Part shown: positions 31,271 through 35,407 of the stretch, one piece after another
Layout: every line of letters begins with the position of its first letter
Numbering within the stretch: position 1 is the stretch's first letter
DNA from: Procambarus clarkii
Lineage: Eukaryota; Arthropoda; Malacostraca; Decapoda; Cambaridae
Reading direction: 5' to 3'
DNA: 64,000 bases
NCBI RefSeq assembly: GCF_040958095.1
Contig: NC_091193.1
Coordinates: 25,875,832-25,939,831, forward strand
Program-made: the position numbers and the translations under genes
Notes under the pieces: model-generated
Database searches by the model: none
What the model saw: the letters and a program-made list of their open reading frames with translations, nothing else
Told to the model about the DNA's origin: nothing

Positions 31271-31370
31271 AAATATATATATATATATATATATATATAT
31301 ATATATATATATATATATATATATATATATTTATATATATATATATATATATATATATATATATATATAT
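31271..31370. repeat. (TA)n tract
   Basis: Nearly pure TA dinucleotides between the broken LINE and MITE unit 1. Confidence 0.95.
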
Positions 31371-32573
31371 GTCGTACCTAGTAGCCAGAACGCACTTCTC
31401 AGCCTACTATGCAAGGCCCGATTTGCCTAATAAGCCAAGTTTTCATGAATTAATGTTTTTTCGACTACCTAACCTACCTAACCTAACCTAACCTAACTTT
31501 TTCAGCTACCTAACCTAACCTAACCTATAAAGATAGGTTAGGTTAGGTTAGGGAGGGTTGGTTAGGTTCGGTCATATATCTACGTTAATTTTAACTCTAA
31601 TAAAAAAAAATTACCTCATACATAATGAAATGGGTAGCTTTATCATTTCATAAGAAAAAAAATAGAGAAAATATATTAATTCAGGAAAACTTGGCTTATT
31701 AGGCAAATCGGGCCTTGCATAGTAGGCTGAGAAGTGCGTTCTGGCTACTAGGTACGTTATATATATATATATGTCGTACCTAATAGCCAGAACGCACTTC
31801 TCAGCCTACTATTCAAGGCCCGATTTGCCTAATAAGCCAAGTTTTCATGAATTAATGTTTTTTCGTCTACCTAACCGACCTAACCTAACCTAACCTAGCT
31901 TTTTTTGGCTACCTAACCTAACCTTACCTATAAATATAGGTTAGGTTAGGTTAGGTAGGGTTGGTTAGGTTCGGTCATATATCTACGTTAATTTTAACTC
32001 CAATAAAAAAAAATTGACCTCATACATAGAGAAAAGGGTTGCTTTATCATTTCATAAGAAAAAAATTATAGTAAATATATTAATTCAGGAAAACTTGGCT
32101 TATTAGGCAAATCGGGCCTTGAATAGTAGGCTGAGAAGTGAGTTCTGGCTACTAGGTACGACATATATATATATATATATATATGTCGTACCTAGTAGCC
32201 AGAACTCACTTCTCAGCCTACTATGCAAGGCCCGATTTGCCTAATAAGCGAAGTTTTTATGAATTAATTGTTTTTCGACTACCTAACCTACCTAACCTAA
32301 CCTAACCTAACTTTTTCGGCTACATAACCCAACCTAACCTGTAGAGATAGGTTAGGTTAGGTTAGGTAGGGTTGGTTAGGTTCGGTCATATATCTACGTT
32401 AATTTTAACTCCAATGAAAAAAAATTGACCTCATATATAATGAAATGGGTAGCTTTATGATTCCATAAGAAAAAATTTAGAGAAAATATATTAATTGAGG
32501 AAAACTTGGCTTATTAGGCAAATTGGGCCATGCATAGTAGGCTGAGAAGTGAGTTCTGGCTACTAGGTACGAC

Positions 32574-32752
32574 ATATATATATATATATATATATATATA
32601 TATATATATATATATAATATATATATATATATATATATATATATATAATTATATATATATATATATATATATATATATATATATATATATATATATAATA
32701 TATATATATATATATATATATATATATATATAATATATATATATATATATAT
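32574..32752. repeat. (TA)n tract, centre of the array
   Basis: 179 bp of TA with four single-base phase slips (TATAATAT). It separates the last unit of the first orientation from the first unit of the other. Confidence 0.95.
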
Positions 32753-35245
32753 GTCGTACCTAGTAGCCAAAACGCACTTCTCAGCCTACTATGCAAGGCC
32801 AAATTAGCCTAATAAGCCAAGTTTTCCTGAATTAATATATTTTCTCTTATTTTTTTCTTATGAAATGATAAAGCTACCCATATCATTATGTATGAGGTCA
32901 ATTTTTCTTTATTGGAGTTAAAATTAACGTAGATATATGAACGAACCTAACCAACCCTACCTAACCTAACCTAACCTATCTGTTTAGGTTAGGTTAGGTT
33001 AGGTAGCCGAAAAAGTTAGGTTAGGTTAGGTTAGGTAGGTTAGGTAGTCGAAAAACAATTAATTCAGGAAAACTTGGCTTATTAGGCAAATTGGGCCTTG
33101 CATAGTAGGCCGAGAAGTGCGTTCTGGCTACTAGGTACGACATATATATATATATATATATTATATATATATATATATATATATATATATATATATATAT
33201 TATATATATATATATATATATATATATATATATATGTCGTACCTAGTAGCCAGAACGCCCTTCTCGGCCTACTATGCAAGGCCCGATTTGCCTAATAAGC
33301 CAAGTTTTCCTGAATTAATATATTTTCTCTAATATTTTTCTTATGAAATGATAAAGCTACCAATTTCATTATGTATGAGGTCAATTTTTTTTTATTGGAG
33401 TTAAAATTAACGTAGATATATGACCGAACCTAACCAACCCTACCTAACCTAACCTAACCTATCTTTAAAGGTTAGGTTAGGTTAGGTAGCCGAAAAAGTT
33501 AGGTTAGGTTAGGTTAGGTAGGTTAGGTAGTCGAAAAAACATTAATTCATGAAAACTTGGCTTATTAGGCAAATCGGGCCTTGCATAGTAGGCTGAGAAG
33601 TGCGTTCTGGCTACTAGGTACGACATATATATATATATATATATATATATATATATATATATATATATATATGTCGTACCTAGTAGCCAGAACTCACTTC
33701 TCAGCCTACTATTCAAGGCCCGATTTGCCTAATAAGCCAAGTTTTCCTGAATTAATATATTTACTATAATTTTTTTCTTATGAAATGATAAAGCAACCCT
33801 TTTCTCTATGTATGAGGTCAATTTTTTTTTATTGGAGTTAAAATTAACGTAGATATATGACCGAACCTAACCAACTCTACCTAACCTAACCTAACCTATA
33901 TTTATAGGTAAGGTTAGGTTAGGTAGCCAAAAAAAGCTAGGTTAGGTTAGGTTAGGTAGGTTAGGTAGACGAAAAAACATTAATTCATGAAAACTTGGCT
34001 TATTAGGCAAATCGGGCCTTGAATAGTAGGCTGAGAAGTGCGTTCTGGCTATTAGGTACGACATATATATATGTATGTATGTATGTATGTATGTATGTCG
34101 TACCTAGTAGCCAGAATGCACTTCTCAGCCTACTATGCAAGGCCCGATTTGCCTAATAAACCAAGTTTTCATGAATTAATGTTTTTTCGACTACCTAACC
34201 TAACCTAACATTTTCGGCTACCTAACCTAACCTATAAAGATAGGTTAGGTTAGGTTCGGTCATATATCTACGTTAATTTTAACTCCAATAAAATAAAATT
34301 GACCTCATACATAATGAAATGGGTAGCTTTATCATTTCATTAGAAAAAAATTTGAGAAAATATATTAATGCAGGAAAACTTGGCTTATTAGGCAAATCGG
34401 GCCTTGCATAGTAGGCCGAAAAGTACGTTCTGGCTACTAGGTACGACATAGATATATATATGTCGTACCTAGTAGCCAGAACTCACTTTTTGGCCTACTA
34501 TTCAAGGCCCGATTTGCCTAATAAGCCAAGTTTTCCTGAATTAATATATTTTTTCTAATTTTTTTCTTATGAAATGATAAAGCTACCCATTTCATTATGT
34601 ATGAGGTCATTTTTTTTTTATTGGAGTTAAAATTAACGTAGATATATGACCGAACCTAACCAACCCTACCTAACCTAACCTAACCTATCTTTATAGGTTA
34701 GGTTTGGTTAGGTAGCCGAAAAAGTTAGGTTAGGTTAGGTTAGGTAGGTTAGGTAGTCGAAAAACAATTAATTCATGAAAACTTGGCTTATTAGGCAAAT
34801 CGGGCCTTGTATAGTAGGCTGAGAAGTGCGTTCTGGCTATTAGGTACGACATATATATATATATATGTCGTACCTAGTAGCCAGAACGCACTTCTCAGCC
34901 TACTATGCAAGGCCCGTTTTGCCTAATAAGCCAAGTTTTCATGAATTAATATATTTTCCCTAATTTTTTCCTTATGAAATGATAAAGCTACCCATTTCAT
35001 TATGTATGAGGTCAGTTTTATTTTATTGGAGTTAAAATTAAGGTAGATATATGACCGAACCTAACCAACCCTACCTAACCTAACCTAACCTATCTTTATA
35101 GGTTAGGTTAGGTTAGGTAGCCGAAAAAGTTAGGTTAGGTAGGTTAGGTAGTCGAAAAACAATTAATTCACGAAAACTTGGCTTATTAGGCAAAACGGGC
35201 CTTGCATAGTAGGCTGAGAAGTGCGTTCTGGCTACTAGGTACGAC

Positions 35246-35407
35246 ACACATATATATATATATATATATATATATATATATATATATATATATATATATA
35301 TATATATATATATATATATATGTATGTATATATATATATATATATATATATATATATATATATATATATATATATATATATATATATATATATATATATA
35401 TATATAT
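35246..35407. repeat. (TA)n tract, right end of the array
   Basis: About 160 bp of TA with one TATGTATGTA interruption at 35320. It runs straight into the middle of a piggyBac-like MITE. Confidence 0.95.

Follow-up and report, generated by a model that had tools for sequence, protein, structure and literature searches.

The repeated element that we investigated is most likely a MITE mobilised by a Ginger2-type transposase, and its array would be an animal counterpart of the SaTar arrays known from plants. Nine units with terminal inverted repeats (TIRs) lie in a single TA tract within the window, by which we mean the whole 64-kb stretch of DNA that was analysed; their divergence shows no neighbour effect, and their ends are similar to those of one element that is equipped with a Ginger2-type enzyme. 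The whole reading, that non-autonomous Ginger2-mobilised MITEs inserted repeatedly into the TA tract and carry their telomere-like core as cargo, is one that we consider probable and hold with moderate confidence.

Anatomy and setting of the array

The array of MITE-like inverted-repeat units that the sequence-only reading had described extends from 31370 to 35246 and does contain nine units, which are 353-392 bp long and non-nested, none of them being interrupted by another. The units also occur in both orientations, as that reading held, four pointing one way and five the other (+ + + - - - + - - for units 1 to 9). Unit 1 (31370-31759, +, 390 bp) has TIR arms at about 31370-31454 and 31675-31759, a core at 31465-31568 and an altered right end (...GGTACGTTA). 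Units 2 (31772-32163, +, 392 bp) and 6 (33672-34063, -, 392 bp) are near-identical partners in opposite orientation, units 3 (32184-32574, +), 4 (32752-33142, -) and 8 (34461-34851, -) are 391 bp long each, and unit 5 (33235-33625, -, 391 bp) lies nearest to the consensus, from which it departs by 5 substitutions. Unit 7 (34096-34448, +, 353 bp), which is adjoined on its left by (TATG)n, has three deletions, each inside the core, and unit 9 (34866-35246, -, 381 bp) has a 10-bp deletion in its core. No ORF of at least 110 aa from the window's ORF list is contained within a unit; one 123-aa ORF spans TA tract together with part of unit 9. The units are short and non-coding and have TIRs, the properties that define MITEs.

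The TIRs measure about 85 bp in each unit (TGTCGTACC...GGTACGACA). TGTCGTACCTARTAGCC opens each unit and its reverse complement closes it, except at the altered right end of unit 1, and all 18 unit ends were located with 0-2 mismatches to GTCGTACCTAGTAGCC. The two consensus arms agree along about 85 bp, position 76 being a common difference. The left and right arms of the same unit are closer to each other than random pairs of arms are (35 differences versus a mean of 41.4, P = 0.0003; P = 0.001 without unit 6). By a stricter count, derived states common to both arms of a unit number 4 versus 2.1 expected (891 of 20,000), and left arms are nearer to other left arms (mean 3.25) than to their own right arms (3.89). 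This may be a weak sign of arm-to-arm conversion within a unit, a hint only.

The TA tract that houses the array occupies 31271-35408. Its ten TA stretches (left flank, eight spacers and right flank) measure 99, 12, 20, 177, 92, 46, 32, 12, 14 and 162 bp; seven of them are purely A/T and the remaining three contain 6, 1 and 4 other bases, which bears out the earlier description of TA tracts as separators. The left tract (31271-31369, 99 bp) and the longest spacer (32575-32751, 177 bp) are among the pure stretches, and the right tract (35247-35408, 162 bp) is the one with 4 bases other than A or T. All 14 (TA)8+ stretches of the window are found in the array tract, and (TA)4+ covers 150 of the 59,862 bases outside it.

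On its left the tract adjoins 30972-31232, a piece of an element of the reverse-transcriptase type (81% identical to 12604-12874). Its right neighbour is a repeat at 35416-35823 with copies at 15347-15785 (82%) and 17550-17885 (79% identical), beyond which sequence similar to 12962-13030 takes up again at 35821. In the other two copies of this repeat, TTATATATAACC and TGTATATA-like stretches are found shortly before the position that corresponds to the start of the TA tract here, and we infer that the tract may have grown from a stretch of this kind, the part to its left having been lost. The interval 14311-17542 is internally repetitive, with GAACAAAACATGCAGATACTTATATATAACC-like stretches, and its ends share the repeat found to the right of the array.

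A Pfam scan of 16 ORF stretches (two belonging to the same ORF), a part of the window's 73 stop-to-stop ORFs, detected reverse transcriptase in three and no match in the others, and thus no transposase; the units themselves contain no enzyme with the H2C2 zinc finger and DDE domain of Ginger2. RVT_1 fragments are located at 43476-44330 (E 6.3e-25) and 24953-25462 (E 3.1e-21); a third at 30076-30423 (RVT_1 E 7.2e-07) is just under the cut-off and also has a weak xRRM match. An open frame of 566 aa at 44428-46128, with CX2C-type cysteine motifs and no Pfam match at 0.001, is one that we presume might encode a retroelement gag-like protein. The window further contains perfect two-copy tandem duplications at 44240-44318 (39 bp) and 62899-63010 (56 bp) and, at 57901-59252, several imperfect inverted repeats clustered together, which are 48-69 bp long, 72-84% complementary and separated by about 0.7-1.2 kb.

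Divergence among units and growth of the array

Under the proposed explanation, each unit would be a non-autonomous, non-coding DNA transposon that was moved by cut and paste, with a Ginger2-type DDE transposase acting in trans; a transposase, an autonomous partner or a single insertion was not seen in the 64-kb window. Such an enzyme would recognise TGTCG...CGACA ends and prefer RTATAY, and given this preference (TA)n would be an ideal landing site. Because each inserted copy remains bordered by TA tract to its left and right, the next one could land beside it and leave it unbroken, and because (TA)n reads the same on both strands, both orientations would arise. The outcome would be a modular, non-nested array resembling the SaTar and mMITE clusters of plants.

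The divergence among the units is consistent with this history. Neighbours in the array do not resemble each other more than units further apart do (mean divergence 5.95% and 5.59%, respectively; Mantel r = -0.16, one-sided P = 0.81), and pairs in the same orientation are no closer (5.87%, n = 16) than pairs in opposite orientation (5.51%, n = 20). Every unit has private substitutions, and 35 of the 36 pairs differ by 11-32 substitutions over 348-391 compared sites; the remaining pair, units 2 and 6, which are in opposite orientation and three units apart, differs at 2 of 392 sites. The existence of this recent inverted pair indicates that some local duplication or local hopping occurred. Columns 86-87 exist in two forms, GT and TG, which are intermingled along the array. 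Of the 36 pairs that can be made of the informative columns in 8 units, 21 are incompatible (a single event probably accounts for both columns 86 and 87), so that exchange among the units or their sources is likely. The absence of a neighbour effect fits repeated independent insertion into one TA microsatellite and argues against a single tandemly amplified satellite. Overall, the pattern is the one expected if separate family members inserted in one TA tract, one local copy was made recently and some sequence was exchanged.

Tandem amplification as the main route is not favoured, given that neighbours are no closer to one another. In a related scenario the array would be a young satellite, grown by recombination or by rolling-circle amplification via the TA tracts and not by repeated transposition. 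The 99.5% identity of units 2 and 6 and the exchange suggested by the many incompatible site pairs point in this direction, as does the proposal, made for SaTars, that microsatellite-filled circles recombine into TA tracts (PMC5907723). Nevertheless, the mixed orientation, the missing neighbour effect, the 11-32 substitutions in the other 35 pairs, and spacer lengths that vary from 12 to 177 bp make this scenario unlikely in our view. We give even less credence to an assembly artefact, in which reads of several loci were collapsed or mis-joined through the TA tracts: TA tracts are difficult to assemble, and units 2 and 6 are almost identical, but each unit has its private substitutions, and in the assembled sequence the flanks are continuous with other repeats. 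We regard such an artefact as exceedingly improbable.

The telomere-like core

A CCTAA run and a TTAGG run are both present in all nine units, in agreement with the sequence-only reading, and the 64-kb window has 25 exact (TTAGG)2+ or (CCTAA)2+ runs, all of them inside units. The perfect runs are short (2-4 repeats). The core had been described as a run of CCTAA that turns into a run of TTAGG; the order holds, but there is no junction of two single runs, as the left arm is followed by two CCTAA blocks with TTTTTCGG between them and then by one TTAGG block. In unit 5, the core occupies 33427-33530 and, read on the minus strand, consists of two CCTAA blocks and then the inverted TTAGG block. The second and third blocks of the consensus form a 23-bp inverted repeat (CTACCTAACCTAACCTAACCTAT / ATAGGTTAGGTTAGGTTAGGTAG) around AAAG, and about 100 bp of asymmetric A+T-rich sequence lies between the core and the right arm. 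The core of unit 7 is reduced to 68 telomere-like bases, versus 95-101 in the other eight units. DNA folding was calculated for unit 5 alone. As a single strand, this unit pairs with itself over nearly its full length (z = -22.5, equalled by 0 of 100 shuffles), and its 118-nt core stretch gives z = -8.2 (equalled by 0 of 200 shuffles).

The label of a head-to-head telomere is not supported in that wording. The order in the core, CCTAA then TTAGG, is the reverse of that at a fused-telomere junction (TTAGG then CCTAA), and the G-rich strands therefore point outward. A relic of telomere fusion was rejected as an origin because the polarity is wrong in nine of nine units, whichever way they are inserted. 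At the 3' ends left by a break at the exact centre of the core, the sequence would be C-rich, and telomerase does not extend such ends.

The rate of substitution is slightly lower in the core (17/848, 2.0%) than elsewhere in the units (76/2231, 3.4%; Fisher P = 0.045, 8 units), and all four gaps longer than one column are located in the core. This combination fits a slipping short repeat, with weak evidence of constraint, and for this reason we treat the core as cargo. It would have been inherited with the element as a captured telomere-type (AACCT)n that folded back and changed its length through slippage, and it would have no required role; the lower rate of substitution may be a weak hint against pure cargo. 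Alternatively, the core might be functional, a portable telomere-type site for telomere proteins or for break healing that is selected in the element or in the host. Its presence in 9/9 units and the slight deficit of substitutions (P = 0.045) would be in line with such a role, and, as the G-rich strands point outward, a break in either flanking TA tract would leave the retained end with a core whose polarity is usable. However, units 7 and 9 show free variation in core length, stretches of 2-4 perfect repeats are short, and binding or healing by way of the core is a prediction from sequence; we think a selected role very unlikely and retain the cargo interpretation.

Were the family dispersed, telomere-type repeats would come to lie in the interior of chromosomes. 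A Ginger2-driven MITE might then be a vehicle that copies these repeats into TA microsatellites throughout a crustacean genome, a suggestion that we offer tentatively and consider possible but doubtful. If true, this would account for some of the interstitial TTAGG signals, and landing sites of two kinds would spread jointly: (TA)n, used by Ginger2-type elements, and (TAACC/GGTTA)n. Several groups of nimaviruses with tyrosine recombinases insert into the latter motif (PMC10871703), so that the MITE occupies the kind of site used by one set of nimaviruses and bears a short stretch of the motif used by others. The element is a concrete, sequence-defined candidate carrier, and the idea is testable by mapping its copies. 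Among the literature matches listed, there was no report of a decapod MITE with a telomere-repeat core. Six TIR strings of 13-15 letters led in the literature to papers on hepatitis C virus and on cattle FAM13A, which were judged unrelated by title and abstract. Four exact unit patterns had 0 matches in viral_contigs and one had 0 matches in genome_contigs, collections of viral and prokaryotic sequence in which absence says little.

Affinity of the ends and comparison with known systems

Ginger2 elements are characterised by TGTNR termini, by TIRs that measure about 50-180 bp, by a 4-bp target site duplication (TSD) and by the target RTATAY (PMC2836005). The TGTCG found at 17 of the 18 unit ends, the exception being the altered right end of unit 1, agrees with TGTNR, and the TIRs of about 85 bp fall within the Ginger2 range. 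(TA)n contains ATATAT and thus agrees with RTATAY, a weak point, as any TA-targeting element would give the same result. TATA is present on both sides of seven of the nine units, not of units 7 and 9, and a 4-bp TSD is unreadable inside (TA)n.

The endogenous nimaviruses of sesarmid crabs insert into (AT/TA)n and possess a 46-base TIR and an integrase that clusters with Ginger2 (PMC10871703). In a comparison starting from the first base of both, with the MITE numbered from GTCG, the viral and the MITE TIR are identical at 25 of 46 positions and differ by 9 transitions and 12 transversions; the first 14 positions comprise 10 identities and 4 transitions. Twenty-five identities were reached by 3 of 20,000 dinucleotide shuffles of the MITE sequence, by 6 of 20,000 shuffles of the viral TIR, and by 0 of 1252 window 46-mers that follow TGTNR. 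Without anchoring, 5 of 119,634 window 46-mers outside the array match the viral TIR as well or better, and 59 of 119,698 14-mers do so for its first 14 bases. The exact 11-mer TGCCTAATAAG is common to both, subterminal in the MITE and terminal in the virus, and none of 5000 random window 86-mers shares a word of this length; the motif SCTANTA occurs at 7 and 33 in both TIRs and a third time at 56 in the MITE. The match is partial, and the comparison uses one published TIR in its printed 46 bases; in this one comparison, the ends appear to be related to those of a Ginger2-equipped element, and such similarity would suggest a common transposase family.

The same array could have grown in the same way with a Mutator-like (MULE) transposase, as in the SaTar, MuTAnT and pineapple mMITE arrays of plants; outside microsatellites, such an enzyme would be expected to leave a TSD of 8-11 bp. 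The architecture is that of SaTars, which are 380-1120 bp long, have TIRs of 40-250 bp, are linked by (TA)n and are never nested (PMC5907723), and the non-nested, microsatellite-joined arrangement that marks a SaTar array is found here as well. Of the pineapple mMITEs, 46.1% are clustered (PMC8449440), and MULEs, whose TIRs are mostly 20-95 bp long, are described from 4 decapod species (PMC13359780). It counts against our reading that, in plants, published arrays built in this way have been assigned to MULE and not to Ginger2. Nevertheless, the ends fit TGTNR and match the TIR of a Ginger2-equipped element, one-sided evidence in that this TIR was the one compared, and we consider a MULE transposase rather unlikely.

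The closest parallels of the units are found in several systems that each share a part of their features. With Ginger2/Tdd and its short non-autonomous families, among them the 252-bp Ginger2-1N1_NV with >50 copies, the units have in common the TGTNR ends, the TIR length and the RTATAY target; however, the passages on these elements mention neither a telomere-like core nor TA-linked arrays, and the units described here have no transposase (PMC2836005). The crab nimaviruses resemble them in their insertion into (AT/TA)n, the 25/46 TIR identity, the 11-mer and the motif spacing, but are viral elements of 265-285 kb and not MITEs (PMC10871703). The SaTars of guayule and rice are likewise short elements with TIRs, and microsatellites, often (TA)n, link them into modular, non-nested arrays, the guayule clusters being never nested; they differ in being plant MULE elements with mixed families per array, whereas all nine units here belong to one family (PMC5907723). 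Pineapple Ac-mMITE and Medicago MuTAnT are also MITE-like and target (TA)n, but they are plant elements assigned to MULE, and a telomere core is not mentioned in the passages that describe them (PMC8449440, PMC4486113). The clusters of the pineapple mMITEs were read by their authors as independent adjacent insertions and not as tandem duplication (PMC8449440). Tetris of Drosophila virilis is comparable as a non-autonomous foldback element that feeds a satellite; however, its tandem repeats are inside the TIRs and non-telomeric, and it is not TA-linked (PMC4079207). What is new here is that the unit ends fit the Ginger2 pattern and resemble a crab nimavirus TIR. This suggests that TA-linked modular arrays, which have been reported in plants with Mutator-like elements, may arise in an animal via a different enzyme.
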